From contig NZ_FTNO01000004.1 of assembly GCF_900156425.1 (NCBI RefSeq), forward strand, positions 186,001-250,000: a stretch of 64,000 nucleotides of DNA, read 5' to 3'. Below, piece by piece: positions 11,424 through 42,280 of the stretch. The notes below the pieces were generated by a model. The model did no database searches and was not told where the DNA came from. It saw only the letters and a program-made list of their open reading frames with translations. This DNA is from Haladaptatus litoreus. Its GTDB lineage: Archaea; Halobacteriota; Halobacteria; Halobacteriales; Haladaptataceae. The first letter of the stretch is position 1, and each line of letters starts with the position of its first letter. Both the position numbers and the translations under genes were made by a program.

Positions 11424-12044
11424 ATGTCAGGCAATAATTCGCAGAAGAAGACCAGCAAAGTCGAGCGAGTGATTCGAGAGTATGAATTAGGCGATATGGG
11501 GGAGACACTCGAAGTCTATTGGACTGGTGAGAGTGAAGAGCAATACAGTCTTCGTGATCTCGCTGATATTTTCAATCAAGCAGTGCTAAGGGCCGAGTTA
11601 GATCGAAACAATGCCTCCCAACTGGAAGGGGAAGTTGAAAATACCTATCGACTACTCACTGATACGTCAGTTAGTAGTGGGATCCAGACGGAGACTGAAA
11701 ATGCGCTTGCTCGTGATGGAATTGACGTAGAGCAACTCAAGAAGGATTTCGTGTCTCACCAGGCGATCTATACCTACCTCACTAAGTATCGGGAAGTATC
11801 CCACAAATCAAAAGTGGGTGATACCAAGACACAGATCGAAAAAGGAGCAGATACTATCCGACGTCTCCAAAACCGGATGGTTGCAGTTTCTGAAACAACG
11901 CTCACGAATCTTCGTAATACGGATCGAATCGAACTGGCGGACTTTGAGGTGATCAACGACGTTCGAGTCGTCTGTAACGAATGTGGTCGGTCCTATCCAA
12001 TAGTTGAGCTTCTCGATATGGGGGGCTGTAATTGCATGATGTGA
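11424..12044 (+). CDS. rdfA: RdfA-family protein (rod-determining factor A), intact copy
   Basis: A 206-residue protein matching the haloarchaeal RdfA family, named for a factor needed for rod-cell shape and usually encoded next to an archaea-specific SMC-related protein. The N-terminal part is charged and helical (SKVERVIREYELGDMGETLE). The C-terminus has a probable zinc site: Cys184 and Cys187 in VCNECGRSYP, and Cys202 and Cys204 in GGCNCM. The expected SMC partner should follow downstream, but only a short decayed start remains near 12192. A decayed second copy lies at 39590-40179 in front of an intact SMC gene. Confidence 0.85.
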   Translation: MSGNNSQKKTSKVERVIREYELGDMGETLEVYWTGESEEQYSLRDLADIFNQAVLRAELDRNNASQLEGEVENTYRLLTDTSVSSGIQTETENALARDGIDVEQLKKDFVSHQAIYTYLTKYREVSHKSKVGDTKTQIEKGADTIRRLQNRMVAVSETTLTNLRNTDRIELADFEVINDVRVVCNECGRSYPIVELLDMGGCNCMM

Positions 12045-12167
12045 CACCATGCGTGAAACTATAAAAATTATATATCAAGGAACTCATACTGATCGACCAT
12101 TTGATTCTGATGGGAGTATCTCTCGTTTATTGTAATACTCGAAATACGATTGGATACAGTATAGAAA

Positions 12168-12173
12168 TTTATA
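12168..12173 (+). promoter_or_regulatory. TATA box of the decayed SMC copy
   Basis: TTTATA lies 19 bases before the ATG at 12192. The same box sits in the same place before the intact SMC gene (40293-40298), and the surrounding sequence from about 12108 is nearly identical to that from about 40225. The promoter was therefore duplicated with the module. Confidence 0.5.
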
Positions 12174-12191
12174 ATCTCGCAATCACGCGAA

Positions 12192-12240
12192 ATGAAATGG
12201 ACTCAACGCAACGGAATCGAACTCCTAGCGACTTTTGATA
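12192..12240 (+). pseudogene. Start of a lost archaea-specific SMC-related gene
   Basis: The first codons read MKWTQRNGIEL, against MESTQRNRTPVEL in the intact SMC gene at 40322. At DNA level TCAACGCAACGGAATCGAAC is shared exactly, and the upstream promoter region is conserved too. Similarity stops after about 50 bases and no Walker A sequence follows, so the SMC gene here has been deleted or scrambled to nothing. Confidence 0.75.
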
Positions 12241-12993
12241 TAGTTACATCTGATTTACAGCTACTTGATCCACTCTATGACAACTACGACCCTTCTCTCG
12301 GTGTTTTACGCTGGAAGAGGTGGTTTACCATGCGGGATCTGGTGAAGGACAGAACACGAATTAGACATTACAGCCATAGCTGTGTAATGATATCTCTCGA
12401 TAAGGGCATTCTCTACCTATTGGCGTTTACAACTCAATTTCCCGACGAACTGACCACAATTTGTTCTCTATGATAGAATACGATCTCGAGTGGAAATGGA
12501 AGACGAGTGTTCGGTCAAAAGGGAGTACGCATAGAAAGAGGCGGTCCTCGTCGCCAAACCGAATGAAAATCGATTCGTGGAATTTTGAGAGAATCCGTCT
12601 CGTTGCTTGGAAGCAGAAGGCCTTCATTACTGTGATGCTCGGTACTCCACGGATATTCAAACGTCGTGAATTTCCGCGACAAATACGTTGGTGATTCTCT
12701 ATACAAGAACGTGATTCTCCTCGCTATAAGTAACAACTGCAAAGGAGCGCCCACTGGCTACGTTTTGTAGATCCGAGCAATGTCGAGAATGGACTCTAAT
12801 AGGACTTTCGCGCCACAAGACAGACTCGGCACCTCGAGGACTATTCATCCGGACAACCCCCGATTACGGTCACCGTCGTTCCAGACGGCCCATCGTCTTC
12901 TCCTATCTTCGTTCTCTAAAATAGAATCCCCTGCAAAATTTGGCGTCGGGTGTTTATGATGACGTCGAGAGCGACGTCTCGCTACGCGACTGA
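12241..12993. other. Non-coding stretch after the decayed SMC start
   Basis: About 750 bases between the SMC remnant and the end of the aldehyde dehydrogenase gene. Several short open frames exist, but none resembles a known family or the SMC gene. It is best read as scar sequence left by loss of the SMC gene. Confidence 0.4.
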
Positions 12994-14442
12994 TTAGTAG
13001 CTGTCGTAGACCGTCTTTTCAATCGTATAGAAGTCTAGCCCCGAATCACCTTGCTCGCGCCACGTCTCACTGGAAGAGCGCTTGAACCCGCCGAACGGGA
13101 CGTGAAGCTCCAGACCAGTCGTTTTGTCGTTGACCTTCACAACCCCGGCTTCCACCTCGTCAATAAACCGATTCGCTTCCGTATGATCGTTGGTAACGAT
13201 GCTCGCTGACAGGCCATATGGTACGTCGTTCGCAACCGCGACACTCTCATCGAAATCGCTGACCTCGATGACCGCAATGACGGGGCCGAAAACCTCCTCT
13301 TGTGCGATACGCATGTCGGAGTCGATATCGGTGAACACGGTTGGTTCGACGAAGTAGCCCGACTCGACTTCTGAACCTTCGGGAACGCCCCCACCTGCCG
13401 CGAGCGTTGCACCCTCTTCTTCGGCGATCTCGATGTACTCAAGCGTCGATTCGAGTTCGTCAGCACTAACCTGGGGTCCCATCTCATGCTCCGAACCGGG
13501 ACCGATGTCGATCGATTCTGCCCGGTCAACGAGTTCCGCGACGAACTCATCATAAACATCCTTGTGAACGATCGCACGGGAGCAAGCCGTACACGACTGA
13601 CCGGTCGTTCCGAACCCACCATTCGCAACGATATCAGCTGCCTCTGCTACGTTCGCCGAGTTCGAGACGACCGTTGGATTCTTTCCACCGAGTTCCGTCT
13701 GAACACGCTTTCCGCTATCCGTCGCCTGATCGTATACCATCCGACCGACTTCGCTACTGCCGGTGAACGAGACGGCATCTACCGCATCGTGTCCGATGAA
13801 TTCACTGCCGACAGTGCTTCCCGACCCCGTAACAACGTTCAGTGCTCCATCCGGGAGGCCGGCTTCGTCGAGTGCTCGTGCGAGTTCGATCGCGACACCG
13901 GGTGCAGCCGACGCCGGTTTGAGAACGACCGCGTTACCTGCGGCGAGTGCCGGTGCGAGTTTCCACGCCGGAATGGCGATCGGGTAATTCCACGGCGTAA
14001 TGAGGGAAGCGACGCCGACAGGTTCTTGGACGGTGTAGAGGTTCTGATCGGTTGCGCTTGGACCTTTCACCGTTCCGCCGAGGTCGGCAGCTTTACCGGA
14101 GAAGTAATGGAAAATGTCGATTGCACGCTGTACCTCGCCGTTTGCTTCGGCGTACGCTTTGCCCTCCTCCGCGACGAGGAGATCAGTCAGCTCTTCTTTC
14201 CGTTCGGCAAGCAGAGTGCCGGCTTCGCGGAGAATTCGACCGCGCTCTGGACCCGGGGTCGCTGCCCAGTCATCTGCCACAGCAGCGGCGGCTTCGACGG
14301 CAGCGGTTGCATCCTCCGTACTGGAACGCTGGTACTTTGCGACGACTTCATCAGGATTTGCAGGGTTTTCGACTTCGATGACCTCGTCGGTCGCCGATTG
14401 AACCCAGTCACCATTCACGTAGTTCTGGTTTATTTCCGACAT
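12994..14442 (-). CDS. xacF: Aldehyde dehydrogenase, 2-oxoglutarate semialdehyde (2,5-dioxopentanoate) dehydrogenase type
   Basis: A 482-residue NAD(P)-dependent aldehyde dehydrogenase. The NAD site and fold are shown by TPWNYPIAIPAWK (about 149-161), the general-base Glu by QTELGGKNP (about 250) and the nucleophile Cys by TTGQSCTACSR (about 282). Next to it, divergently, lie a xylonate-dehydratase-like gene and an FAH-fold dehydratase, the other late enzymes of the haloarchaeal oxidative pentose pathway in which XacF makes 2-oxoglutarate. That context is the reason for the xacF assignment. Residues alone would allow another semialdehyde substrate. About 300 bases of shared promoter region separate it from xacD. 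Confidence 0.85.
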   Translation of the reverse strand: MSEINQNYVNGDWVQSATDEVIEVENPANPDEVVAKYQRSSTEDATAAVEAAAAVADDWAATPGPERGRILREAGTLLAERKEELTDLLVAEEGKAYAEANGEVQRAIDIFHYFSGKAADLGGTVKGPSATDQNLYTVQEPVGVASLITPWNYPIAIPAWKLAPALAAGNAVVLKPASAAPGVAIELARALDEAGLPDGALNVVTGSGSTVGSEFIGHDAVDAVSFTGSSEVGRMVYDQATDSGKRVQTELGGKNPTVVSNSANVAEAADIVANGGFGTTGQSCTACSRAIVHKDVYDEFVAELVDRAESIDIGPGSEHEMGPQVSADELESTLEYIEIAEEEGATLAAGGGVPEGSEVESGYFVEPTVFTDIDSDMRIAQEEVFGPVIAVIEVSDFDESVAVANDVPYGLSASIVTNDHTEANRFIDEVEAGVVKVNDKTTGLELHVPFGGFKRSSSETWREQGDSGLDFYTIEKTVYDSY

Positions 14443-14741
14443 CGTACGTTCGTTCTCAGTTCACCCATACGACTCTTACGGTACGTGGAGAGATTGATAT
14501 TTCTCAGATGGTCGTGAACAGTCTCCGGCCCGCGTCCCGAAGCACGTGCTCCGTCTCTCGGTAGAGACGAACCTTGATAGGGGACGGACCTGGTTTTTCT
14601 TGGTCCTACGTGATTTTGCTGCGAGACCACGGTCGCTGGAACACGAATTCACTGGAGTCAACGAACGTAGAGCCGGTGTGAATTGGTTGAACTATAAAAC
14701 CCGTAACGTTTACTATAGCACATCCGAATCGTGTGGACGCA

Positions 14742-15974
14742 ATGGTTGATTATGCGAAGCTCCGCGACCCGAACGCGGAGTATACGATGCGCGACCTCTC
14801 GGCCGAAACGATGGGCGTCTCCAACCGCCGTGGCGGTGTGCGCGATGCGGAAATCACCGACGTTCAGACGACGATGGTCGACGGAAACTACCCGTGGATA
14901 CTCGTTCGCGTGTACACCGATGCCGGTGTCGTAGGAACTGGTGAAGCGTATTGGGGCGGCGGCGACACAGCAATCATCGAACGGATGAAACCCTTCTTAG
15001 TCGGTGAAAATCCACTCGACATTGACCGACTGTACGAACATCTCGTCCAGAAGATGTCCGGTGAGGGCTCTATTTCCGGAAAAACCATATCTGCAATCTC
15101 CGGCATCGAAATCGCACTTCACGACGTTGCCGGCAAGCTCCTCGAAATCCCGGCCTATCAGCTCGTCGGTGGGAAATATCGTGACGAGGTTCGTATCTAC
15201 TGTGACTGTCATGCTGGCGATGAATCCGAACCCGAATCAAATGCGGCGGAAGCCGAGCGCGTGGTCTCCGAACTCGGCTACGACGCCATCAAGTTCGACC
15301 TTGACGTTCCGTCGGGACACGAAAAGGATCGCGCGAACCGCTACCTCCGAGGTCCCGAAATCGATCACAAGGTCGAAATCGTCAAACAAGTTTGTGAGAC
15401 GGTCGGTGACCGCGCGGACGTGGCCTTCGATTGTCACTGGTCGTTCACTGGCGGCAGTGCAAAGCGTCTCGCGGCCGCGCTCGAAGAATATGACGTGTGG
15501 TGGCTTGAAGACCCAGTTCCCCCCGAGAATCACGATGTTCAGGAAGAGATCACTAAATCCACGACGACACCGATCGGTGTCGGCGAGAACGTGTACCGAA
15601 AGTACGGTCAGCGAACGTTGCTCGAACCACAAGCAGTAGACATTATCGCGCCGGACCTACCTCGTGTCGGTGGTATGCGAGAAACGCGAAAAGTTGCCGA
15701 TCTCGCGGATCTGTACTATATTCCGGTCGCGATGCACAACGTTTCCTCGCCGATCGGCACGATGGCTTCTGCTCAGGTCGCAGCTGCGATACCGAACAGC
15801 CTGGCCGTCGAGTTCCACTCCTATCAACTCGGCTGGTGGGAGGACCTCGTTGAAGAGGATGATCTCATTCAGGAGGGTCGGATGGAAATCCCGGAGAAAC
15901 CTGGTCTCGGCCTCACACTCGATCTCGACGCTGTCGAGCAGCACATGGTCGAAGGTGAGACGCTCTTTGACTAG
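14742..15974 (+). CDS. xacD: Xylonate/arabinonate dehydratase, enolase superfamily
   Basis: A 410-residue mandelate-racemase-like dehydratase. Catalytic barrel elements appear in order: AIKFDLDVPSG (about 183), FDCHWSF (about 230), WWLEDPVPPE (about 252), VGENVY (about 283) and a histidine in AMHNVSSP (about 333). The opening MVDYAKLRDPNAEYTMRDLS resembles what I recall of Haloferax XacD, which supports the ATG at 14742 over the GTG three codons upstream. The enzyme would convert D-xylonate or L-arabinonate to the 2-keto-3-deoxy acid. The FAH-fold dehydratase follows 81 bp downstream on the same strand. Confidence 0.85.
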   Translation: MVDYAKLRDPNAEYTMRDLSAETMGVSNRRGGVRDAEITDVQTTMVDGNYPWILVRVYTDAGVVGTGEAYWGGGDTAIIERMKPFLVGENPLDIDRLYEHLVQKMSGEGSISGKTISAISGIEIALHDVAGKLLEIPAYQLVGGKYRDEVRIYCDCHAGDESEPESNAAEAERVVSELGYDAIKFDLDVPSGHEKDRANRYLRGPEIDHKVEIVKQVCETVGDRADVAFDCHWSFTGGSAKRLAAALEEYDVWWLEDPVPPENHDVQEEITKSTTTPIGVGENVYRKYGQRTLLEPQAVDIIAPDLPRVGGMRETRKVADLADLYYIPVAMHNVSSPIGTMASAQVAAAIPNSLAVEFHSYQLGWWEDLVEEDDLIQEGRMEIPEKPGLGLTLDLDAVEQHMVEGETLFD

Positions 15975-16055
15975 TAAATTATTGTATATTCTATCGAAAT
16001 TTTACTAATTTATCGTGGCGATACATTTTTAACGACATCCACGAACTATTGTGTC

Positions 16056-16937
16056 ATGCGCTATTACCGACTCCCCGGTGGAGAGCGTTCAGCGACGGAT
16101 ACCCTCGTTGTCGAAGACGAGGACGGAACAGCATACGATCTGACTTCTGCATCACCTGACTTAGGATCGTTCAAAGCACTTGCTCGAGCGGCAAATGCAA
16201 ATGACGAGTCGATCGATACCGTTGCACGCAAACGTCTCGACGACGCTGATCGGTTCGATCTCGATACGGCTACTGGAGACCTTCTTCAACCGGTCGTCGC
16301 CGACGAAGTCTGGGCGGCCGGTGTTACGTATCAAATCAGCGAAGAAGCACGCAAAGCGGAGAGTGGAAAGCCCGAAGTGTACATCGACGTTTATGATAAC
16401 GAACGTCCCGAAATATTCCTCAAGGCGACACCGTCGCGGACGGTCGGTCCATCGGAGGATATCGGTGTGCGTGGTGATTCGGATTGGGATGTCCCGGAGC
16501 CGGAACTCGGAATTGTTCTTCATCGAGGCAAAACCGTCGGTTACACCATCGGTAACGATGTATCCAGTAGGGATATCGAAGGTGAAAATCCGCTGTATCT
16601 CCCACAGGCAAAAGTGTACGACCGCTGTTGTTCGATCGGTCCATGTGTCGTCTCGGAGGAGACGATCGAGGATCCACACGACCTTGAAATGTCGTTGACC
16701 ATCGAACGTGATGGTAAGATCGTGTACGAGGAATCAACGTCGACGAACGAGATGGTGACCACGTGTGACGAACTCGTATCCTATCTAGATCGACATAACG
16801 TCCTTCCCGAAACGCTCGTCCTCCTCACCGGAACGGCTCTGGTACCCCCAGAGTCGTTTACCCTCACCGAGGGCGACCAAGTGACGATCGACATCGGCGA
16901 TATCGGTCGGCTCGTGAACGGTACTGTCACCGTATAA
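16056..16937 (+). CDS. xacE: 2-keto-3-deoxy-pentonate dehydratase, FAH fold
   Basis: A 293-residue FAH-superfamily enzyme of the 2-dehydro-3-deoxy-D-arabinonate dehydratase type. It has an N-terminal extra domain (about 1-85), a helix-strand segment WAAGVTYQISEEARK (about 88-102), metal-binding acidic residues in WDVPEPELGIVLH (about 145-157), then TIGNDVSSRDIEGENPLYLPQAK, and GTALVPPESFTL near the end. It would make 2,5-dioxopentanoate for the divergently encoded semialdehyde dehydrogenase. The three genes cover pentonate to 2-oxoglutarate; the first-step xylose dehydrogenase and lactonase are not next to them. Confidence 0.85.
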   Translation: MRYYRLPGGERSATDTLVVEDEDGTAYDLTSASPDLGSFKALARAANANDESIDTVARKRLDDADRFDLDTATGDLLQPVVADEVWAAGVTYQISEEARKAESGKPEVYIDVYDNERPEIFLKATPSRTVGPSEDIGVRGDSDWDVPEPELGIVLHRGKTVGYTIGNDVSSRDIEGENPLYLPQAKVYDRCCSIGPCVVSEETIEDPHDLEMSLTIERDGKIVYEESTSTNEMVTTCDELVSYLDRHNVLPETLVLLTGTALVPPESFTLTEGDQVTIDIGDIGRLVNGTVTV

Positions 16938-16951
16938 ACCGACGACACGTT

Positions 16952-18436
16952 CTTGACATCCTCTCCGCCGTAAACGGCGAGGATTCCCCCCGAGTTGGGA
17001 TATTACGGTTCGCGGTTAACGACTTGTTCTCGCGGGGCGAACCGACCCTCGCTACAATCGAACAAGCGCACCGCTGGCTGTGCCAACCAGCCGTTATCCC
17101 TATCCTCATTTGGTGGATTCGGGAGTACTTTTCGTCTGATGTTCTCCGCACCATTACTGTCCGCGTTCGCAACCAACCCACACTCACACACGTACAAGCC
17201 TCGCTGGACACGCTGACGGTCGTCTGACTGACCGCACGCTGAACACGTTTTCGACGTATTGCGCTCGGACTTCGTGACAACAGAGATGCCACGTTCTTCC
17301 GCCTTGTACGCAAGCATCGAAGTGAAGCGGTCGAACGCCCACCCGTGCAAGTCGAGATTGCCGTGCTTACCCCAATTGCGGGCGTCACCGTTCTCGTCCT
17401 CGCGGATGCCGCCGAGGTCACCAACAACAATCGTTCCGACACCCCTTTTAGAACATTCGGATACGATGTCCTTCGAGAGCGTGTGCAAGAAGTGTGTCCG
17501 GCGGTCGGTACGCTTTGTGTCGAGACGACGGGCTTCGTGTGACGCCGAATCGTCCGTCTCGGCGCGCTTCTTGGCGAAGTAGTATTCGTCTTCTTTAAGC
17601 GCCCCACCGGGGTACAACACTGATTCGTCGCCGTACGAGACGGTAGCGAGGTTGCAGATGCCAAGGTCGATGCCTGCCACGCCGTCACCGGGTGATTCCG
17701 CTTCGTTAATCGTGACGCGACAGACGAAATGCAACCGCCAGATGTCGTGTTCGTACACTGCACGAACCTGCTGAACGTTCTCGATAGTCCTTTCGGACGG
17801 GCCGATGGCATCGTACTCGCACAGAACGAAGTCCGACCAATTCTCTTTGAGGTTCTTGCCTTTCGAGAGACGAACTCGGTTGTTGTGCGTGTCATGCTTG
17901 AAGCCAGCCGCCTTGAACGTGATTGTTGAACGCGGGTGGTTGTCGTTGTGTTTGCGGTAGCCGGGCGGATTCGCGTTCGTGTCCCCGTTTCGGCGTTTGC
18001 CGTACCAACTGGTGAACGCCTCTTCGAGTTCTTGGAGAACTCATTGACTCGACTGAGAATGGAGGTCGGCGTAGCGTTCGTGGTTCTTGAGGTACGCCAT
18101 AAGCGCGTTAGCGCCGGGGATGTGGCCGCAAGCATCCCAGACTCGTTGGACCGTCCATCGGCCAACGTTCCAGAGCTTGCTGGCAGCGAATCCGAGCGAA
18201 TCGAGGTCGTTGCGCACCTGCGAGTAGTTGCAGATACGGGCGCGGTAGGTTCGCGTAACGACCTGTTTCGCCATACGTAACCTATGTCACCACAAATACT
18301 TATACCTGCGTAGAGCGGGGTGAAAGTGAAACAATCCGTGGAATATCCGGCCCTGGTACCGGCGGTGGTTGCCGAATACTTTGTCGGATTCATCCCCGCC
18401 CTAAAGGACGGGGCTTTCTCCTCGTATCTACGTAAA
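16952..18436 (-). mobile_element. IS200/IS605-type TnpB element, left end at 18436, right end at 16952
   Basis: About 1.5 kb bounded by a right end (hairpin GCCGTAAACGGC and the terminal GATGTCAAG read on the minus strand, 16952-17000) and a left end (about 18337-18436, with the CCCCGCCCTAAAGGACGGGG hairpin and ATCTACGTAAA). No TnpA transposase is present, so it is a TnpB-only (IS1341-like) element. Its left end is repeated in inverse orientation at 20710, facing this one across a two-gene cassette. The ends were placed by comparing copies in this window. Confidence 0.7.
17003..18274 (-). pseudogene. tnpB: tnpB with one in-frame stop (RNA-guided endonuclease TnpB)
   Basis: Reading from ATG 18274, the frame is open apart from one TGA at 18043-18041 (after LHSQSSQ, codon 78) and then runs on in the same frame to 17003. 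That gives 423 codons if read through. The stop is one base from an Arg codon (CGA). The C-terminal part keeps the RuvC Asp in AGIDLGICN, a zinc ribbon (CSACG, then CECG) and the last Asp in NADSNGAENI. At RuvC motif II it reads VVGDLGGIRED, with Gly where the TnpB at 25036 has Glu (AVEDL). Otherwise well preserved, so inactivation is recent, or a TTG/ATG further in gives a shorter protein. Confidence 0.8.
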
Positions 18437-18548
18437 TACTAGCGAACCGTTGCGTGGTCAAGCCTCGAAGTACATAGGTAGCTTCGTCTATATTATTTGT
18501 AATAATCTTATTAGAAATATTTATGAGACTCGGATGATATTTGTGAAT

Positions 18549-19322: not shown

Positions 19323-19433
19323 GCACCCGACGCGACCTACTCGACAGCGCTAAAGTTCGCATCGGTAGCCGTCACTTCGAGCCGAGAAATCACAGCCACC
19401 GTGTTTCAAAAAAGGTGCGTCGATGAAAATCGC

Positions 19434-20618: not shown

Positions 20619-20709
20619 TCATTTCGTTACAGATGTAATAATACTTTTTATCGGGTCAAATGGTGTTTCGAACACTGTTCAGCGTATATCAGGCGCCACA
20701 TTGGTGCCG

Positions 20710-21224: not shown

Positions 21225-21508
21225 ACGACGCCCATATCGGCGAGGGTTTGGAGTGGAAGGTGATTATATCCCGCTGCGACGCCCGCAAACAATTGGAGGT
21301 TTTCTGCGTACTCTAACAAATTTTCGTCGATACGCACGCTGGATACGATTTTTGCATCGCTTATGAATTCGCGCTCTTGCGATGGTGTTTGTGCGCATCG
21401 AACGCATAGGTTTGGGAGCTGGTTGTCGAGAATGGCGGCATACTCGGCCGCCGGCAGTCCATGTGTATCGCTGCGTAGGACGAGGACATCAGTTCTATCG
21501 TCGTTCAT
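21225..21508 (-). pseudogene. D-2-hydroxyacid dehydrogenase, N-terminal fragment
   Basis: About 95 codons from ATG 21508 encode the N-terminal catalytic segment of an NAD-dependent D-2-hydroxyacid dehydrogenase: FISDAKIVSSVRIDENLLEY, then LQLFAGVAAGYNHLPLQTLADMGV. The gene ends exactly at the TnpB-element right end (21224). The NAD-binding domain and catalytic residues are gone, so the fragment cannot be active. Confidence 0.72.
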
Positions 21509-25035: not shown

Positions 25036-26130
25036 ATGAACTACAACTACAGGTATCGACTCCGACCGTCCGACGCTCTCGAAGAACAATTAGTGTGGAC
25101 TGTCGATACCTGTAGACAGGTCTACAACCACTTCCTCCACCGGCTCAATCGGAACGACGATACGTCGGCGTACTCCGAGCAGAAACTCCTACCGAGTCTC
25201 AAGAAGTGGTGGTCTGACCTGAAAGACGTTCACTCGAAAGTGCTTCAGAAAGTCGTTCAGCGGTTGTACGACAACCTCTCGACGCTTCGCGGACGGAAAG
25301 AGAACGGCTACCACGTCGGGACGCTCAAGTGGAAGGCACCGGACGAGTACCGCAGTTTCACCTATAGTCAATCCGGCTTCAAGCTCAAGAACACGAGTGG
25401 CCGAGCGCGACTGTGGCTCTCGAAACTCGGAGAAATCCCCATCACCTTCCACCGCGACCTCCCCAACGACGCCGACATCAAGACCGTCTCGATTAAGCAA
25501 GAACCAACCGGGAAGTGGTACGCCATCCTCGGTGTCGAAACGCCCGACGACCCACCGGAGAAATCGGAGAATCCCGAGCGGTGCGTCGGAATCGACGTAG
25601 GGATTCTCAAGTATGCCCACGACACCGATGGAGCGGCGGTCGAATCGCTCGACCTGTCCGACGAACGCAACCGGTTGGAACGCGCACAGCGTGACCTCTC
25701 GCGGAAGGAACACGGCTCTGCGAATTGGGAGAAACAGCGCCGTGTCGTTGCCGAACGCCACGCCGAATTGAAGAACAAGCGCCGGGACTTCCTTCACAAG
25801 CTCTCGAACTACTACGCCCGAGAATACGACTTCTTGGCGGTGGAGGACTTGGACACGAAAGGGTTAGTCGAGCTACCGGGCAGCTCGCGCAACCGGGCGG
25901 GTGCGGCGTGGGGGACGTTCCTCCGGATGCTCGAATACAAATGCGAACGGGAGGGAACGCACTTTGTCGCCGTGAATCCGCGCGGAACGACCAAAGAGTG
26001 TGCATCCTGTGGCGTTTCGACCAATAAACCGCTGTGGGTGCGTGAACACTCGTGTCCGTCGTGCGGGTTCGAAGCGGATAGAGATGCGAACGCGGTGTGG
26101 AACATTCTTTCTCGCGGTATCAAGCGGTGA
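25036..26130 (+). CDS. tnpB: RNA-guided endonuclease TnpB, intact
   Basis: A 364-residue TnpB with an N-terminal helical recognition domain (YRYRLRPSDALEEQL, TCRQVYNHFLHRLNR), a split RuvC nuclease and a zinc ribbon. Catalytic residues are all present: Asp in VGIDVGIL (about 187), Glu in LAVEDLD (about 269) and Asp in ADRDANAVWN (about 348). Zinc ligands are CASC (about 322) and CPSC (about 340). TnpB uses the omega-RNA from the element's right end to cut the donor site, keeping the element in the genome. No stop or frameshift is seen, so it may be functional. Confidence 0.92.
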   Translation: MNYNYRYRLRPSDALEEQLVWTVDTCRQVYNHFLHRLNRNDDTSAYSEQKLLPSLKKWWSDLKDVHSKVLQKVVQRLYDNLSTLRGRKENGYHVGTLKWKAPDEYRSFTYSQSGFKLKNTSGRARLWLSKLGEIPITFHRDLPNDADIKTVSIKQEPTGKWYAILGVETPDDPPEKSENPERCVGIDVGILKYAHDTDGAAVESLDLSDERNRLERAQRDLSRKEHGSANWEKQRRVVAERHAELKNKRRDFLHKLSNYYAREYDFLAVEDLDTKGLVELPGSSRNRAGAAWGTFLRMLEYKCEREGTHFVAVNPRGTTKECASCGVSTNKPLWVREHSCPSCGFEADRDANAVWNILSRGIKR

Positions 26131-32642: not shown

Positions 32643-32815
32643 ACGCCTTCTTCATTCTCAGGGCTGTGCTATAGGTTTTACTTCGTGAGAAGAGAAAGTA
32701 CCGACAACACTCCCAACCGTTTGAGCATTATCGCCAGTCCAATGTTCGATTCAATGTTATTGCCCTTCTCCGATAGTTCACCCCCACCTCAAATGAGAAA
32801 TACTGTGAAAAGGCG

Positions 32816-35020: not shown

Positions 35021-35563
35021 CTATCGATCCTCCACGATGATAACACAGACGTCTGCTGGCCCGTGAACCCCCTCGACGAGCGCACCCATATCACCGGTTG
35101 CGCTGACGCCAGTCGCAAAGACGGCGGATCGCCGACCGTCGGTGAACTCGCCATCCAACCATTCGAGCGCGTCGCGAACATCCGGAACAATGTCGTCTTC
35201 ACGAACCACAGCGACGTGACGAGGTGGATAGAGGCTGATCGGTTCAGTACCATTGGGGGAGGATTGTAACAGCAGACTCCCGTGTGCTGCAACACCAAGC
35301 GCGGCGGGAGTAATGCCGGTTTTCGCCTCTACGAGTTGCCGCGATGACGGGGAAAGATTCGCATCCGTTTCTTCGAGCGAGATGCCGTCGATGTCTAACG
35401 GAACGCCCACGGCAGGCAGTTCTATCTGCGCAGCGAGTGCTTCGGTAAACCCATCCGGGGTCGTACTTATACACGGAATATCGAGGGTCCCTAACGACGA
35501 CTCGAATGCCGCGACCACGTTTGTTGCCATAGTTTCACACACTGAACGGACCGTGATAATCAT
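35021..35563 (-). CDS. lutC: LUD domain protein, LutC type
   Basis: A 180-residue LUD-domain protein: GISLEETDANLSPSSRQLVE, ITPAALGVAAHGSLLL, PRHVAVVREDDIV and SAVFATGVSATGDMGALVEG with HGPADVCVIIVE at the end. These are the family's conserved blocks. LutC is the third component of the LutABC lactate oxidase. The start overlaps the LarA-like gene by 4 bp (ATGA) and the stop abuts the LutB-LutA gene. Confidence 0.88.
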   Translation of the reverse strand: MIITVRSVCETMATNVVAAFESSLGTLDIPCISTTPDGFTEALAAQIELPAVGVPLDIDGISLEETDANLSPSSRQLVEAKTGITPAALGVAAHGSLLLQSSPNGTEPISLYPPRHVAVVREDDIVPDVRDALEWLDGEFTDGRRSAVFATGVSATGDMGALVEGVHGPADVCVIIVEDR

Positions 35564-36996
35564 TTCTCGTTGTGTCGAGAGATGTTCACATCTTTTATAT
35601 CATCAAATTTACCGTTTGTGAAGGAAATGGACACGGGTTCTTGGACTACGCGTAAGTCGTCGCGAGTACGGGTGGCTTCGACGAGCGGCTCGGAGACCAA
35701 GAGATAGCGAAGGTGGCTCGTGTCTTCCGCTCGAATCACACGCGCTTGCTCAGGAGGGGTGACACCGATCGTCGAGAGGCAGGCGAGTAGCCCCGCGGCG
35801 TCGTTTTCGACGGTCGGGGGAATCCGCATCGAGCGTGGAGAGGTCGCGGTGAGAACGTTGACAAACGTTTTTCGGGAATCAATGGCTGCCAAGAGATCGG
35901 CGTGGATGAAATCGGCGGATCCGACACCGACAGCGTTACCGTGTGAAGCTTCGGTCAACTCACGAACAAAAATCCGCTTAATTTCCGGCGTTTCCGGCTC
36001 CGGTTCGTTAAGACCGTACACGAGCCGGCCAATGACGTTCGTATCCATTCCTGCCCCCGAGATGTCCTTGCCCATGCGATCCAAAATTAATACGTCGAGA
36101 TCGTCGAACGGCAACGTCGGCAATAGCTCGTACGAACGCTCCAGTAACCGAGCTTCGCGCTGGAGAAAACCACCTTGGGATATCCCTTCGATTATCGCAG
36201 TATCATCGTTCTGATCTTCGACGAGGGCGATGCCACCGACAATCGGTAATGCCTCGATCAAGAGCGTCGCCATTTCGGGAATCATCCGGCGGAAACTCCA
36301 GTTAGCCGCCCATTCGTGGGCCGTCTTTGCTCCGCGTTGTTTTCCCATACCAACGACGAGCATCTTCGAGAGGCCGCTTTCGATGCGACCGCTGAAATCC
36401 GTATGCGGTTTGATACGGTTGATTGGAACGATCGCATCCGCATCGACTGCGTTCGCGTCCGCGTGAACCGGAACTTCCCTGTCGTCAGTCTCACCGACGA
36501 TAACGGTCTCCATCGTCGAGCGGATCTCACAGCCAACGGACGTCTCGGTGACACCGAGAGCAGCGAGCGTTTCCCGTTGACCATCTGGTGTTGCACCACC
36601 GTGACTGCCCATCGCCGGGAAAACGAACGGTTCGTAGCTACGGTTACGTAACCCTGCAATCACCCCCGCAACGATCGTTTGGAGGTTTGATATACCGCGG
36701 CTCCCGACACCGACAGCAACAGTTCCACCCCGAGGCACTGAGGACAGGTCGAGCGAATCCACCGCAGCAACCGCGCGATCCCGAATGTCTGCATTGGGGA
36801 TCGGAGACGTTTCCCAGCACTGCTCGATGACTCCCATTTTGGGAAGTGACTGGTCAGTGCATGCATCACGAACCGTCGTTTCGGAGATAATCCTGCCATC
36901 CATGGATTCGCGGACCATACCATATCCATTCCGATCGATTACTAAAATGTAGGGGACGAACTCCGATTCAAACCACGACAGCGGGACAAAGTACAT
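35560..36996 (-). CDS. LarA-like (DUF2088) nickel-dependent racemase family protein
   Basis: A protein of up to 478 residues related to the lactate racemase LarA N-terminal domain. It shows TVAVGVGSRGISNL (about 93), FVFPAMGSHGGATPDGQ (about 123) with a conserved His, and INRIKPHTDFSG (about 193). LarA-family enzymes racemise or epimerise 2-hydroxy acids. The first residues (MYFVPLSWFESEF) are unlike the family; starts at 36918 (MVRESMDG) or 36903 (MDGRIISE) are more likely. It is translationally coupled to lutC, which suggests it supplies the stereoisomer the Lut complex oxidises. No NPN-cofactor genes (larB, larC, larE) are in the window. Confidence 0.82.
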   Translation of the reverse strand: MYFVPLSWFESEFVPYILVIDRNGYGMVRESMDGRIISETTVRDACTDQSLPKMGVIEQCWETSPIPNADIRDRAVAAVDSLDLSSVPRGGTVAVGVGSRGISNLQTIVAGVIAGLRNRSYEPFVFPAMGSHGGATPDGQRETLAALGVTETSVGCEIRSTMETVIVGETDDREVPVHADANAVDADAIVPINRIKPHTDFSGRIESGLSKMLVVGMGKQRGAKTAHEWAANWSFRRMIPEMATLLIEALPIVGGIALVEDQNDDTAIIEGISQGGFLQREARLLERSYELLPTLPFDDLDVLILDRMGKDISGAGMDTNVIGRLVYGLNEPEPETPEIKRIFVRELTEASHGNAVGVGSADFIHADLLAAIDSRKTFVNVLTATSPRSMRIPPTVENDAAGLLACLSTIGVTPPEQARVIRAEDTSHLRYLLVSEPLVEATRTRDDLRVVQEPVSISFTNGKFDDIKDVNISRHNEK

Positions 36997-37060
36997 CGAC
37001 AGTCTGTTCCGAAAATCCAGCGGCGTATCGCTGTATGTCGGATGAAGATTCTACGGGATA

Positions 37061-38236
37061 TTACTCGTAGATGTGGACGCTTCCAGTGGTGTTCGATTCG
37101 ATATAGTCCCAATCGTACTCCACACCGAGACCGGGTTCATCCGGAACCGGAACCGTCCCGTCACTGTCGATTGCGTCGATCATATCCGAGTAGCCTCCGA
37201 CATAGACGGGGGGTTGCGTGTTTTGGCACTTCGGATGAACCAGTGCGAGTTCATAGTAGTTCGAATTCCGTGTCGCCGCGATACAATGCCGCTGGGCGGG
37301 ACCGGGTGCGTGGAATTCGACGTCGAGTCCGAACCCTTCTGCTACCCTGGCACGTTTCATCGCGCCCGTAATTCCGCCGTCGTACTCGGGATCTGCACGC
37401 ACGAAATCGGTAGCCTCGTTCGCGACGAAGTCGGTAGCCATCTCGAGACCGCGAACGTGTTCAGTTTGTAAGATCGGGGTGTCAAGCGATTGGCGAAGCT
37501 TCCGATGTGCGTGTTGGGAAATCCCGCCGTCGCGGAACGGGTCTTCATACCAGAAAAAGCCTTCTTCGTCGAGCGCACGTCCTAATTTGAGCGCATCGCC
37601 GAAGGTTTCTAGCTCACAGGCCGGATCGTGCATCAGATCCATCTCGTCCCCGACACGTTCTCCGACCGCGTGCACGGCCGCGATTTCGCGGTCGAGATCT
37701 CGGGCGGTATCGTCACCTCCCCACCCATGAATCTTGTATCCGGGGAACCCGCGCTCACGGCACTCTTCGGCGAAATCAGCGAACGCTGTCGGCGAATCGA
37801 GCCCTTCATTCTCGTCACCGTGATAGGTGGATGCGTAGGATGGTATCCGCTCTCGGTACGTTCCAAGCAGTTCGTGGATCGGTGCGCCGTGATGTTTTCC
37901 TGCAAAATCCCACAGTGCAATGTCGAGCGGACCGATCCCCATTCGATCGTACTTTCTGAGCGCACGCTTGACCTCGCTCCAGTGTTTCTCGCGTTTTAGC
38001 GGATTCTTACCGACGAGATAGTCGGCGACGGTATTGTATTGGGCCGCTCCTGGAGAGTTGCCTCCTACATACTCCCCAGTGATACCGGTATCGGTGTGAA
38101 CCTTTATCGCGAACAATTTTCGTTCGGTCGTTGCTCCCGGCTCGTAAACGAGGTTGAAACCGTGCGTATCGGTGCCAACGTCTTCTAACGGATACCTGAA
38201 TTCCGTGCTCTCGATCTTCGTTATTTCTGGTGCCAC
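37061..38236 (-). CDS. Enolase-superfamily sugar-acid dehydratase/epimerase
   Basis: A 391-residue mandelate-racemase-like enzyme. Motifs in order: K-x-H in YKIHGWG (about 170), LMHDPACE (about 205), FFWYEDPFRDG (about 229), LQTEHVRG (about 257) and FHAPGPAQRH (about 308). The K-x-H form and the HAPGP loop set it apart from the two other dehydratases here. It is the promoter-proximal gene of the leftward cluster and is divergent from an IclR gene, so it probably carries out the entry dehydration. Substrate not known; L-rhamnonate, L-fuconate or galactarate are possible. Confidence 0.87.
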   Translation of the reverse strand: MAPEITKIESTEFRYPLEDVGTDTHGFNLVYEPGATTERKLFAIKVHTDTGITGEYVGGNSPGAAQYNTVADYLVGKNPLKREKHWSEVKRALRKYDRMGIGPLDIALWDFAGKHHGAPIHELLGTYRERIPSYASTYHGDENEGLDSPTAFADFAEECRERGFPGYKIHGWGGDDTARDLDREIAAVHAVGERVGDEMDLMHDPACELETFGDALKLGRALDEEGFFWYEDPFRDGGISQHAHRKLRQSLDTPILQTEHVRGLEMATDFVANEATDFVRADPEYDGGITGAMKRARVAEGFGLDVEFHAPGPAQRHCIAATRNSNYYELALVHPKCQNTQPPVYVGGYSDMIDAIDSDGTVPVPDEPGLGVEYDWDYIESNTTGSVHIYE

Positions 38237-38255
38237 AGTAATGAATTCCGATGGT

Positions 38256-38305
38256 ATGGTATAAATTTTTCCGGACGTGATTACTCTTGATTATGATTAT
38301 ACCAT
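38256..38305. promoter_or_regulatory. Inverted repeat between the dehydratase and IclR genes, candidate operator
   Basis: ATGGTATAA (38256-38264) and its exact complement TTATACCAT (38297-38305) lie in the 250-base divergent intergenic region between the dehydratase gene and the IclR gene. IclR proteins bind palindromes in such places. The 9-bp arms are separated by 32 bases, about three helical turns, which would suit two dimers or DNA looping. Confidence 0.4.
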
Positions 38306-38485
38306 GATCAACGTGGGATTTTTATACAGCAGCTTCATTGAACGCTGACCACGATAATAGAGAGGGTAAAAAATGACATCTCTGACAGCGGTGCTTTCTA
38401 CAGTTAAATGACGTCCATAGTTTGCTAACTAACTTGTTCTCTATATCAGAATAAAACTTTTATACCCGCAATCAGTGATCGAATC

Positions 38486-39250
38486 ATGGAAAAGACAGCG
38501 AAACACCCAGTCCAAACGACGGAAAAAACGCTCCGGCTCGTCGAGGCGCTCAAAAACAGCGGGAGTTGTGGAATTACTGAATTGGCGGACCGGTTGAATA
38601 TGGGTAAAAGTGCAGTTCACAATCACTTGGCTACGCTCGAACAACACGGATACGTGGTCAGCGAGGCTGGAAAGTATCGATTGGGGCTGAAGTTCTTGGA
38701 TATAGGTGGCTATACCCGTAGTCAGATGGACCTGTATAAGACTGCAGAATCGGAAGTAAAACAGTTGGCAATGGAAACGGGCGAGCGGGCAAATTTACTG
38801 ACCGAAGAACATGGTATGGGAATCTACCTATATCGTGCGAATGGAAACCGGGCCGTTGATTTGGACACTTACACCGGTGTTCGTACCTACCTTCATACCA
38901 GTGCGCTCGGAAAGGCCATCCTTGCAACTATGTCAGAAGAGCGTACCGAGGCTATTCTCGACCGGCACGGGCTACCGGCGACGACACCGGGGTGTGTAAC
39001 CGACCGCGACGAGTTATACGACGAATTAGAAACGATTCGTGAGGACGGATTCGCGGTCGATGACGAAGAACGGATGGAGGGTCTCCGCTGTATTGCGATG
39101 CCCATCACCTCTACGGAAGGGAACTCGTTGGGGGCTATCAGCATCTCAGCACCGTCCAGCCGCATGAAAGGGACTCGGTTTCAAGAAACGATCCCGGAAT
39201 TGTTGAGCGGTGCTGTGAATATGATCGAACTCAATCTCAACTACTCGTAG
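38486..39250 (+). CDS. IclR family transcriptional regulator
   Basis: A 254-residue regulator with an N-terminal winged helix (TEKTLRLVEALKNSGSCGIT, ELADRLNMGKSAVHNHLATL) and an IclR effector domain (about 75-250). The effector-domain core shows HTSALGKAILATMSEERTEA. It is divergent from the leftward sugar-acid cluster, so it most likely controls that cluster and itself, sensing a pathway intermediate. It resembles the regulator at 10345 across its length but has a different C-terminal end (VNMIELNLNYS). Confidence 0.92.
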   Translation: MEKTAKHPVQTTEKTLRLVEALKNSGSCGITELADRLNMGKSAVHNHLATLEQHGYVVSEAGKYRLGLKFLDIGGYTRSQMDLYKTAESEVKQLAMETGERANLLTEEHGMGIYLYRANGNRAVDLDTYTGVRTYLHTSALGKAILATMSEERTEAILDRHGLPATTPGCVTDRDELYDELETIREDGFAVDDEERMEGLRCIAMPITSTEGNSLGAISISAPSSRMKGTRFQETIPELLSGAVNMIELNLNYS

Positions 39251-39303
39251 GCGAGTGTTCTCTATCCCATCCGGATCGAATCGATGGTGTTGGAAATCGA
39301 ACG

Positions 39304-39315
39304 CCCTTTTTTGGG
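39304..39315 (+). terminator. T-rich palindrome after the IclR gene
   Basis: CCCTTTTTTGGG, a six-T run between 3-bp complementary arms, lies 54 bases after the IclR stop. Archaeal termination usually needs only a T tract, so this is a plausible terminator. Confidence 0.35.
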
Positions 39316-39589
39316 TGAATCATAGCTTACTCGATATCGAATCTCGTTCTCTATTTCACGATCCATTGTGATTCACCTTCAGCAACCTGATCCAGCAGAT
39401 CCACGTGAAATCGGACCAAATACATGAAGAAACTGTACACTTGCTACTCCGCATGCTAGTTCTATTCCAGAAGGATCACCTCCGTTTTAAATCAATTACA
39501 GACCTATGACTGTAATGGATACCGGCCAACCGGCATATAAATACGGTCTGGGCAAACAAATATTAATATAATTCGAGGATGATTTTCGA

Positions 39590-40179
39590 AAGAGGACTAG
39601 CAAAGTCGAGCGAGTGATCCGGAAATGTGAGCTAGACGACATGGGTGAGACGCTCGAAAAGCACTGGACCGGAGAGATCGAAGAGCAGTACAGTCTTCGT
39701 AACCTCGCTGATTTTTTCAACCAGGAGATGTTGGCTGTCGAATTTGACCGACATAATGCTGCCCCACTCGAGGGGTAAGTCGAAAACACCTACAGCCTCC
39801 TCACGGACGAAACGGTTAGTAGCAGGGTCAAAACGGAAACCGAAAATTCACTCGCTCGTAATGGAATCGATGTAGAAAAGCTCAGGAAGGATTTCGTATC
39901 TCACCAAGTATCGAAATGTATCTCACGAGTTGAAGAAGGACGACTCCCAAACACAGATCCAAAGGGAGCAGATACAGTTCGACATCTTCAGAACCGGATG
40001 GTTGCAGTTTCTGAAACAACGCTCACGAATCATCGTAGTACGGATCGAGTCGAACTGGCGGACTTCGAGGTGATCAACGACGTTCGAGTCATCTGTGACG
40101 AATGTGGTCAGTCCTATCCAATAATTGAACTTCTCGATATGGAGGGCCGTGATTGCATGATGAATCATCATAACTGAAA
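39590..40179 (+). pseudogene. rdfA: Second rdfA copy, nonsense and deletion
   Basis: Aligned with the intact rdfA at 11424, this copy begins in frame at the codons for SKVERVI (39599). It carries a TAA at 39776-39778 where the intact gene has GAA (after LEG), and near 39900 has lost about 20 bases found in the intact gene (GGCGATCTATACCTACCT region). The 3' half remains very close in sequence, including the CNEC motif region, here CDEC. The first codons are also unlike the intact gene and no start is evident. It lies directly upstream of the intact SMC gene, as the module order requires. Confidence 0.85.
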
Positions 40180-40292
40180 TTTCGAGGATATATATTAAGA
40201 AGCTCATACTGATTGACTATTTGATCTCTGATGGGAGTATCTCTCGTTTATTGTAATACTCGAAATACGATTGGACATAGTATGGAAATTCA

Positions 40293-40298
40293 TTTATA
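40293..40298 (+). promoter_or_regulatory. TATA box of the SMC-related gene
   Basis: TTTATA lies 23 bases before the ATG at 40322, as expected for a leaderless haloarchaeal message. The same box and flanking sequence precede the decayed copy at 12192. Confidence 0.5.
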
Positions 40299-40321
40299 AC
40301 CTCACAATCAAACGAAGTGAT

Positions 40322-42280
40322 ATGGAATCAACGCAACGGAATCGAACTCCAGTTGAGCTTTCAGCTACTAATATCGGTGGCATTGACCACACCAGCGTTA
40401 CGTTTTCTCCGGGAGTCACCGTTCTCACCGGGCGAAACGCAACTAACCGAACCTCATTCCTTCAGGCGATCATGGCGGCACTCGGTAGCGAACGAGCGTC
40501 GCTCAAGGGTGATGCCGACGAGGGGTCAGTCGAACTCACCATCGGCGACGAAACCTACACTCGCACGCTCACACGGCAGAACGGAACTGTTGTGACGAGC
40601 GGTGAGCCATATCTCGACGATCCTGAGATCGCGGATCTCTTTGCGTTCTTGCTTGAATCGAATGAGGCCCGGCGTGCAGTTGCCCGAGGGGATGATCTAC
40701 GAGATCTGATCATGCGTCCCGTCGATACCGAAGCGATCCAAGCTGACATCGAGCAACTTACCACAGAAAAACGCCAAATAGATGATGAATTAGAGGAACT
40801 TAAGTCCCTCAAACATAAACTTCCCTCTCTTGAAGAAAAGCGAACCCGTTTAAAAGAGGAAATAGAGGAGAAACGAGCAGCGCTCGAAACAAAGGAAACA
40901 GAACTCGAAGAGGCTGATTCTGACGTCAGTGAAACCCGGAAAGAACAAAACGAGCTCGAAGAAAAGTTGGATGAATTGCGAGAAACACGATCGACCCTCG
41001 AGGATGTCAGATTCAAGATCGGCACTGAAGAGGATAGTATCGAAGCCTTGCAGGATGAACTTGAGGATCTCGAGAGCGAGCAGGCAGAGCTTCCAGATGG
41101 TTCAACTGACCCAGCGACGGACTTCGAGGAGGAGCTTCAAACGTTGCGCGAACGAAAGCGCCAGCTCGATTCGACGGTGAACGAACTGCAAACGATCGTT
41201 CAGTTCAACGAAGAAATGCTTGAGGGCACCAGCCCCAATATTCGCACTGCACTCCAATCAACAACAGAATCAGATTCGGATGGGTCACTTACAGATCAAC
41301 TTGTTGCCGATACAGAGACTGTTGTCTGCTGGACATGTGGAAGCGAAGTCGAAAAACAGAAAATTGAGTCGACGCTCGATCAGTTACGATCCCTTCGGCA
41401 GGAAAAACTCGATGAACGAAGTGAGCTAAATGCCGAGATGGGGGAGCTCGAAGAAGAGAAATCTGAACTTAAGGCCCAACAACAAGAACGTCAGCAGATC
41501 GAACAGCGTCTTCAGCAGCTCGAAACTGAACTTGATGATCGAACCGCCAAACTCGATGACCTGCGTGATGAGCGCGGTACAATAACCGAAGAGATCGATA
41601 CTCTCGAACAAGAAGTGGAGGAACTCGAGCAAGAAGACTACAGCGAAGTACTGGACCTGCATCGCGAAGCAAATCAACTCGAGTTCGAACTGGAGCGACT
41701 CGAAACCGATCTCGACGACGTTGAAGCCGAAATTTCGGACATCGAAAACCAATTGATCGAACAAGAGCAACTCGAAGACCAGCGGGCGCAGATCCAAGAC
41801 GAATTAACCGACCTCCGGACACGGATTGATGACATCGAGGCCAACGCCGTCGAACAGTTCAACGAGCACATGGCGAGCATGCTGGAGCTGCTTGACTATG
41901 CAAATCTCGATCGAATCTGGATCGAACGCACGGACCAGGAGGTTCGCGAGGGTCGTCGGAAAGTCACGAAAAGCGTGTTCAATTTGCATGTGATTCGCAC
42001 GACCGACTCGGCGTCAACCTATGAAGACACGATCGACCATCTGAGTGAAAGTGAGCGGGAGGTCACCGGACTTGTGTTCGCATTGGCAGGCTATCTTGTT
42101 CACGATGTCTATGACCGCGTGCCGTTTATTCTCTTAGATTCACTCGAAGCGATCGACTCGGATCGGATTGCAACATTGGTTGAGTACTTTAGCGAGTATG
42201 CGGGCTACCTTGTTGCAGCACTGCTGCCGGAGGATGCCGCGGCTCTCGACGATGCGTATGAGCGTGTAACCGAAATCTAA
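40322..42280 (+). CDS. Archaea-specific SMC-related protein
   Basis: A 652-residue SMC/Rad50-like ATPase. The P-loop is the variant GRNATNRTS (residues 37-45), without the usual GKS/GKT lysine. Two long coiled coils (about 150-310 and 350-520) flank a zinc-hook-like CWTC (about 337-340). The C-terminal ATPase half shows LSESEREVTGLVFALAGYL (signature region) and a degenerate Walker B, FILLDSLEAID. Such proteins pair with RdfA in haloarchaea. The start at 40322 is chosen over a frame opening at 40271 because it matches the decayed copy and the TATA spacing. Its own rdfA is broken, so it may rely on the RdfA at 11424. Confidence 0.88.
   Translation: MESTQRNRTPVELSATNIGGIDHTSVTFSPGVTVLTGRNATNRTSFLQAIMAALGSERASLKGDADEGSVELTIGDETYTRTLTRQNGTVVTSGEPYLDDPEIADLFAFLLESNEARRAVARGDDLRDLIMRPVDTEAIQADIEQLTTEKRQIDDELEELKSLKHKLPSLEEKRTRLKEEIEEKRAALETKETELEEADSDVSETRKEQNELEEKLDELRETRSTLEDVRFKIGTEEDSIEALQDELEDLESEQAELPDGSTDPATDFEEELQTLRERKRQLDSTVNELQTIVQFNEEMLEGTSPNIRTALQSTTESDSDGSLTDQLVADTETVVCWTCGSEVEKQKIESTLDQLRSLRQEKLDERSELNAEMGELEEEKSELKAQQQERQQIEQRLQQLETELDDRTAKLDDLRDERGTITEEIDTLEQEVEELEQEDYSEVLDLHREANQLEFELERLETDLDDVEAEISDIENQLIEQEQLEDQRAQIQDELTDLRTRIDDIEANAVEQFNEHMASMLELLDYANLDRIWIERTDQEVREGRRKVTKSVFNLHVIRTTDSASTYEDTIDHLSESEREVTGLVFALAGYLVHDVYDRVPFILLDSLEAIDSDRIATLVEYFSEYAGYLVAALLPEDAAALDDAYERVTEI

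Follow-up and report, generated by a model that had tools for sequence, protein, structure and literature searches.

A probably recombinant, split rdfA–ASRP module on a Haladaptatus litoreus replicon

In Haloferax volcanii, RdfA (HVO_2174) is needed for rod shape and motility, and deletion of either gene of the pair rdfA–sph3 (HVO_2174–HVO_2175) results in disk-only, non-motile cells, as reported in the available excerpt of PMC10869688. According to the same excerpt, 42 of 54 rdfA genes and 42 of 50 genes for the archaea-specific SMC-related protein (ASRP) are adjacent in 24 genomes, while 12 of 54 and 8 of 50 are solitary; in one case the two genes are eight genes apart. Here, we describe this gene pair in a window of 64,000 nt from Haladaptatus litoreus, i.e., bases 186001–250000 of contig C6 (NZ_FTNO01000004.1; 397,787 bases) in a genome of 4.67 Mb and 11 contigs. 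An intact rdfA with the remnant of an ASRP gene (copy 1) and a broken rdfA with an intact ASRP gene (copy 2) occur at two places in the window. We consider it probable that they represent a recombinant, split rdfA–ASRP module, in which a resident module has been partly overwritten by an imported one. To our knowledge, there is no settled account of the way in which RdfA and the SMC-like protein encoded next to it determine cell shape in archaea, or of whether the two are parts of a single machine.

The rdfA gene of copy 1 (11424–12044, forward strand; 206 amino acids) gives a full-length match with the Pfam profile RdfA (PF21811; E = 2.2e-73; 246.7 bits against a cut-off of 27), residues 11–204 corresponding to profile positions 1–194 of 195. 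Downstream on the same strand lies the ASRP remnant (12197–12225), which an earlier note on this DNA had described as some 50 bases of an SMC gene at 12192: it is indeed a fragment, but it starts with the ATG at 12197 and is alignable over about 29 bp (some ten codons; MDSTQRNRTP), after which three more codons and a stop follow. The remnant keeps its promoter upstream, with a TATA-like TTTATAA at 12168–12174. In copy 2, likewise on the forward strand, rdfA is alignable from about 39590 and looks like a pseudogene: its start codon is gone, a TAA occurs at 39776, 23 nt are missing near 39906 (about 20 bases near 39900 in the earlier note) and one nt is deleted after 39959. Its 3′ part has neither a frameshift nor an early stop, yet one of four conserved Cys is changed into Arg and the stop codon is shifted by 12 nt. 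The ASRP gene behind it (Sph-like; 40322–42280, forward strand; 652 amino acids) is intact and matches the NCBIfam profile NF045487 over positions 1–593 of 593 (E = 1.1e-219; 730.9 bits against a cut-off of 300); its TATA-like TTTATAA is at 40293–40299, with 29 nt from the first T to the ATG. The earlier note was thus right about the intact rdfA, the broken rdfA, the intact SMC gene and the distance of about 28 kb between the surviving halves (28.3 kb).

Searched with BLASTN against the window, the sequence 11001–13000 has a single other match, 39590–40350, with 77.9% identity over 786 columns (E = 0.0), and the likeness of the two copies is, therefore, far beyond chance. It is unevenly spread: per step of 60 bases, identity is 65–80% up to 39949; between 39950 and 40309, most steps reach 85–93%, but the one at the rdfA stop codon has 73%. 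The promoters, held to be near-identical in the earlier note, are so in front of ASRP (107/121 identical; TTTATAA in both copies), but, apart from a TATA-like box and a palindrome of 22 bp, those of the two rdfA genes have little in common.

The change in similarity reflects two module lineages, one found in H. pallidirubidus (P type) and one in H. caseinilyticus (C type). Over copy 2, there are 137 informative sites where copy 1 is identical to H. pallidirubidus and differs from H. caseinilyticus. To the left of 39988/39999, copy 2 has the P state at 14 and the C state at 47 of them; to the right, the counts are 72 and 4. The maximum chi-square, 74.6 at 39988/39999, was matched by none of 10,000 permutations, and the 86 coding sites alone place the break at the same position (14 P and 47 C against 25 P and 0 C). 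Because the nearest lineage switches so sharply, copy 2 is a recombinant of the C and P lineages. On the forward strand, it is composed of a C-type 5′ rdfA block (39590–39988), a P-type 3′ rdfA block (39999–40177), an intergenic stretch with the ASRP promoter that is closest to copy 1 (40178–40321) and a P-type ASRP gene, 93.9% identical in amino acids to that of H. pallidirubidus. In steps of 120 bases from 40350 to 42150, the latter gene is nearer to the P type in all but the step at 40590, which is even; the step at 42150 is nearly so (98 against 97 of 120). That the mosaic and the lesions are errors of assembly or sequencing is hardly credible: this is a draft genome in 11 contigs with a reported contamination of 6.96%, but the broken rdfA carries four separate lesions, the breakpoint agrees with two known lineages and the synteny of the flanks with H. 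caseinilyticus extends right up to the module, all of which speaks against such an origin.

The sequence between the copies (12341–39250) shows synteny to plasmid unnamed5 of H. caseinilyticus; the syntenic pieces are 82–91% identical and separated by gaps. On this same replicon backbone, H. caseinilyticus has one intact pair at the copy-2 place, and the synteny comparison found no module parts at the copy-1 place of its plasmid. H. pallidirubidus has an intact pair near the same IclR gene with an inverted decayed module in between; this rdfA–ASRP module faces the intact pair and is located at 11520–13200 of locus L066 (about 134519–136200 of the plasmid). Synonymous divergence (dS, substitutions per synonymous site) was determined for three backbone genes, all three of which are nearer to H. 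caseinilyticus (0.37, 0.53 and 0.50) than to H. pallidirubidus (0.83, 1.26 and 1.01). The C block of the broken rdfA agrees with the backbone (dS 0.34 to H. caseinilyticus). By contrast with the backbone values of 0.83–1.26, dS to H. pallidirubidus is only 0.21 for rdfA of copy 1 and 0.37 for the copy-2 ASRP gene, for which it is 1.16 to H. caseinilyticus. The P-type module is younger than its backbone; it must, therefore, have crossed lineages after the backbones had split, and was imported rather than duplicated in place.

These data bear on the reading of the earlier note, reciprocal loss after duplication. Complementary halves have been lost, as it stated, and the copies do align from rdfA into the start of ASRP; a single duplication of the whole module inside this genome, with subsequent decay of opposite halves, is nonetheless quite improbable. 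Between the copies, the 5′ blocks of rdfA have a dS of 2.3 (0.22 between the 5′ block of copy 1 and H. pallidirubidus), the two lineages meet in a sharp switch at about 39990, and the copy-1 place of H. caseinilyticus is devoid of module parts. The mosaic refutes such a duplication, unless the 5′ block was later exchanged for C-type DNA from outside. Duplication of an IclR gene and the module as one unit was also considered and dropped in view of the identities of the two IclR-family regulators upstream of the copies. That of copy 1 (10315–11103, forward strand; Pfam IclR_C, 7.5e-38) and that of copy 2 (38486–39250, forward strand) are 41% identical (BLASTP); the former is only 31% identical to the gene at the corresponding place in H. 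caseinilyticus, and the latter is 95.7% identical to its H. caseinilyticus counterpart at the same place.

We propose that the resident module of the replicon was of the C type and located after the IclR gene at 38486, and that a P-type module, now seen at the copy-1 place, arrived from another lineage. Recombination within rdfA at 39988–39999 brought P-type sequence into the C-type place, comprising the 3′ end of rdfA, the promoter in the intergenic stretch and ASRP. The most likely route may be gene conversion from copy 1, since, among the intergenic stretches compared, those of copies 1 and 2 resemble each other most: 107/121 identical (over 40196–40321), against 102/126 for copy 2 and H. 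pallidirubidus and 89/121 for copy 1 and H. pallidirubidus. This closeness favours exchange between the copies, short of proof. Polyploid Hfx. volcanii carries out intermolecular gene conversion efficiently, and its sph deletion mutants are impaired in gene conversion (excerpt of PMC11276520). The C-type 5′ part of rdfA is broken, and the copy-1 ASRP gene was lost or never complete, in either order. The genes that remain intact, 28 kb apart, encode one RdfA and one ASRP, both of the P type. In a variant that we regard as possible, if clearly the lesser chance, incoming P-type DNA directly replaced the 3′ half of the resident module, copy 1 being a separate, incomplete insertion from the same source, without conversion between the copies. 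Copy 1 stops after 10 ASRP codons, so it was maybe never whole, and the 3′ rdfA block is about equally distant in dS from H. pallidirubidus (copy 2, 0.12) and between the copies (0.11). What speaks for conversion instead is the closeness of the copies in the intergenic stretch, though a common incoming source would produce the same.

Several observations weigh against the scenario of import and conversion. We infer both the donor in the last exchange and the direction that it took: copy 1 is the closest candidate over the intergenic stretch, but it holds just 10 ASRP codons today. Differences unique to one sequence in the intergenic stretch (21 for H. pallidirubidus, 11 for copy 1 and just three for copy 2) fit conversion, yet fit a common incoming source, too. 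The protein trees leave the sisterhood of the ASRPs of copy 2 and H. pallidirubidus unsettled within the trio with H. caseinilyticus; DNA and dS support it. With regard to function, the ratio of nonsynonymous to synonymous divergence (dN/dS) of rdfA copy 1 to H. pallidirubidus, 0.31, exceeds the 0.06–0.14 of the other finite rdfA comparisons and may signal relaxed selection; the gene is constrained, though apparently less than in those comparisons. When the P block of the broken gene is compared with copy 1, dN/dS is 0.72, on just four synonymous and 10 other changes. Furthermore, profile searches of the genome yielded two intact rdfA genes besides the broken one and two ASRP genes above the cut-off. 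The earlier note had named, as a find that would refute its reading, a complete pair elsewhere in the genome that serves both copies; a complete pair, which may do so, is present on contig C5 (rdfA, 107340–107924; ASRP, 108039–109901; profile matches). Between the C5 pair and the window, identity is 75% for the ASRPs (copy 2) and 72% for the RdfAs (copy 1). Unlike the intact genes of the window, these two lie within 1 kb of each other, and the pair could render both survivors dispensable.

It is necessary to consider, whatever the history, that the survivors are decaying, the C5 pair does all the work and the split is functionless. The complete C5 pair, the dN/dS of rdfA copy 1 and the broken or partial module genes that occur elsewhere in the genus are in line with this view. 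However, the copy-2 ASRP gene has 652 intact codons and a dN/dS of 0.09 to H. pallidirubidus, and rdfA copy 1 is intact, with a TATA-like box and the palindrome in front of it, which together make functionless survivors rather unlikely in our judgement. In H. pallidirubidus, the genes that correspond to the two survivors form a single adjacent pair (87% amino acid identity for RdfA, 94% for ASRP), which makes action across loci plausible. Such action is probably ordinary for this family. Under the proposed history of import and conversion, RdfA and ASRP could probably be made separately, as each gene has its own TATA-like box, and would act jointly in trans beside the C5-type pair. By analogy with RdfA and Sph3 of Haloferax volcanii, the output would be rod shape and motility.

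How common split pairs are was assessed in 99 genomes, this genome included, with 131 rdfA and 126 ASRP genes. The former number omits three sequences under the cut-off and one fragment with three stops in genome G067, and the latter omits sequences under the cut-off and two pieces on contig C16 of G081. Altogether, 99 of the 131 rdfA genes have an ASRP gene within 1 kb, the broken copy 2 being counted; 69 of these 99 are on the same strand with rdfA first, and 10 each are convergent, divergent or ASRP-first. No partner within 1 kb was found for 32 of 131 rdfA and 28 of 126 ASRP genes, in agreement with the published counts, so solitary partners are not special; split pairs are not odd in this family. 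Both families exceed the cut-offs in 72 genomes, 26 have neither and one has ASRP only (G035, 81% complete), while none has rdfA only (kinship ignored). In seven of the 72 (G001, G003, G004, G011, G026, G086 and G098), there is no pair within 1 kb, the genes of G026 being 2.8 kb apart. The co-occurrence of the two families and the existence of such unpaired genomes speak for action in trans. Genomes with a solitary rdfA tend to have a solitary ASRP gene as well: 13 have both, 15 and 7 have one only and 38 have none (Fisher's exact test, p = 0.005, kinship ignored). The genome sets for the Fisher tests and the list of unpaired genomes were compiled by hand from the search tables.

Partners of different lineages were encountered in relatives. 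In G003, which belongs to the same genus, a single rdfA lies 15 kb from a single full-length ASRP gene, and the two are of different module lineages. When groups chosen after inspection of the first trees were compared by approximately unbiased (AU) tests, the sole RdfA of G003 grouped with the window type (C5 grouping rejected, p-AU = 0.025) and its sole full-length ASRP with the C5 type (grouping with the window type rejected, p-AU = 0.0001); similarly, RdfA of G004 is nearest to that of G010 and its ASRP to that of G005, with the opposite groupings rejected at 0.003 and 0.00008. The first trees comprised 20 RdfA and 19 ASRP sequences, leaving aside the incomplete ASRPs of H. pallidirubidus designated 338k and C4 and the rdfA of locus L062. 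The AU tests used 17 of these 20 and 17 of these 19, enlarged by 19 of 20 further loci for each protein (the L110 ASRP was incomplete and one rdfA was not found). In addition, G003 has a partial ASRP gene on its contig C10 (profile positions 368–593). At the place that corresponds to the C5 pair, H. pallidirubidus has kept rdfA and lacks about 1.25 kb inside ASRP (L067, 7358–8845), and G003 has kept ASRP and lost most of rdfA by deletion (L080, 8667–10810); opposite halves were thus lost at one syntenic place in two relatives. If RdfA and ASRP need each other, partners of different lineages must cooperate in G003 and G004.

The palindrome, ATTACA-N10-TGTAAT, is a candidate operator of rdfA copy 1 (11369–11390), two bp after the TATA-like TTTAAAT at 11360–11366; upstream of the broken rdfA (39495–39516), it likewise follows TTTAAAT by two bp. 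In full, it reads about ATTACANNNCTAGNNNTGTAAT. A further exact copy occurs at 12367–12388, with a counterpart in H. caseinilyticus (G008, C6:13299), and other sites are at 2984–3005 of the window and at C5:95431, 95533 and 107233 of this genome (G000). The pattern RTTAYA-N10-TRTAAY has 13 sites in this genome against one for the reversed control, and 160 against 14 in nine genomes of the genus. An exact site occurs within 170 bp before the profile start in 11 of 33 genes or fragments from these nine genomes (5 of 16 rdfA and 6 of 17 ASRP), against 53 of 5000 random stretches, which were drawn from the same loci and hence contain true sites; this set leaves aside the ASRP pieces G002 C2:60647, G003 C10 and G006 C4. 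All seven rdfA genes in the clade comprising the window and C5 modules, the broken copy among them, are preceded by the palindrome, with 11 or 12 of 12 positions matching. The other ASRP clade contains G001, two genes of H. halobius (G002 C3a and C2b), G004, G005 and one of H. salinisoli (G007 C3); there, the palindrome is located 122–123 bp before ASRP in six of six, five sites being exact and that of G005 having 11 of 12 positions; one ASRP fragment of G002 has the site, too. Among the six intact solitary ASRP genes of the genus, those of G001, G004 and G002 C2b have it and those of G002 C2a, G003 and G007 C5 have none. All other rdfA and ASRP genes have scores between 7 and 10, apart from one ASRP fragment of H. 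pallidirubidus (G006) with 11, and 10 of 40 upstream regions of rdfA from this and other families score 11 or more.

An IclR-family gene lies within 300 bp at four of the 13 sites of this genome, and the other sites are near unrelated genes, among the neighbours scanned; a general IclR operator is one possible identity of the palindrome. Two of the C5 sites fall between two IclR genes, one of which is identical to that of copy 1. The CsmR site of Hfx. volcanii, TATCA-N4-TGATA (excerpt of PMC13286277), was rejected as an identity for the palindrome: this motif is absent near either copy, allowing up to one mismatch. Our literature searches on Haladaptatus with rod-determining factor, and on haloarchaeal IclR binding sites as inverted repeats, found nothing. 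A further possibility, in our view less likely than not, is that RdfA and ASRP of different module lineages are interchangeable trans partners, and that pairs on Haladaptatus plasmids are continually re-sorted by recombination and complementary loss, under co-control through a common 22-bp palindromic candidate operator situated before rdfA in one clade and before ASRP (some of them solitary) in the other. Genomes with exactly one full-length RdfA and one ASRP, unlinked and even of mixed lineage (G003 and G004), are natural tests of the link between the two proteins, on which the absence of genomes with rdfA but without ASRP (0 of 99) bears as well. They supply defined protein pairs for interaction tests, and the palindrome is a candidate regulatory site.

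The copy-2 ASRP has a zinc hook (CWTC) in its coiled coil, and CxxC is found in 38 of the 38 sequences compared. Canonical ATPase motifs have a Lys in Walker A and a Glu in Walker B. Neither residue is present in the copy-2 protein (GRNATNRTS and LLDSLEAID): 34 of the 38 ASRPs have Arg in place of the Walker A Lys, and none of the 38 has Glu directly after the Walker B Asp. The degenerate motifs being common to most or all of these sequences, membership of the family stands and the assumption of SMC-like ATP hydrolysis falls. ASRPs are possibly an SMC-like family without normal ATP turnover, and the copy-2 ASRP would be a coiled-coil protein linked by its hook that turns over ATP weakly or not at all, RdfA being its partner or regulator. 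RdfA ends in a four-Cys motif, the columns of which are kept in 38–39 of 39 sequences. Its model is mostly helical, at low confidence (AlphaFold2 with a three-row alignment; mean predicted local distance difference test score, 44.8). No relatives in viral contigs were confirmed in an alignment scan, and no solved structures matched RdfA by sequence up to an E value of 1.

Elsewhere in the window, 16956–18538 is extra with respect to H. caseinilyticus and matches plasmid stretches annotated as TnpB or transposase; the minus-strand open reading frame in this region (16927–18393) matches no Pfam profile at 0.001. The stretch around 25036–26130 differs from H. caseinilyticus, and these bases encode a TnpB-like protein (Pfam OrfB_IS605 and Cas12f1-like). 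A protein of 960 amino acids with response-regulator, PAS, GAF, BAT and HTH_10 domains is encoded at 57555–60437. As to direct repeats, the ends of copy 1 share one 9-mer, which we did not regard as a signature.

The rdfA–sph3 pair of Hfx. volcanii resembles the locus described here in combining an RdfA-family protein with an SMC-like one, encoded by genes that are adjacent in most of the haloarchaea surveyed (excerpt of PMC10869688). It differs in that the partners of the window are 28 kb apart, with a recombinant apparent pseudogene next to an intact ASRP gene and with a second complete pair in the genome. In common with the ASRP/Sph family described in PMC9389158, the copy-2 ASRP has a coiled coil, a zinc-hook CxxC and N- and C-terminal ATPase-like motifs; the available excerpt of that paper makes no mention of the Walker A and Walker B changes of the compared ASRPs. 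Among relatives, H. pallidirubidus plasmid unnamed4 (NZ_CP085305.1) carries the closest relatives in the plasmid collection of both RdfA of copy 1 and ASRP of copy 2 (rdfA match at 131783–132400, annotated 131855–132403; ASRP at 132561–134519), but, unlike in the window, these genes are adjacent and intact, and a decayed module in inverted orientation lies next to them. H. caseinilyticus plasmid unnamed5 (NZ_CP111041.1) carries a single intact pair (rdfA, 40767–41387; ASRP, 41572–43530) at the same place as copy 2, after the same IclR gene, and is of the lineage to which the 5′ block of the broken rdfA belongs. In G003, as in the window, rdfA and a full-length ASRP gene are non-adjacent, but there, in contrast to the two P-type survivors, the partners are of different module lineages.

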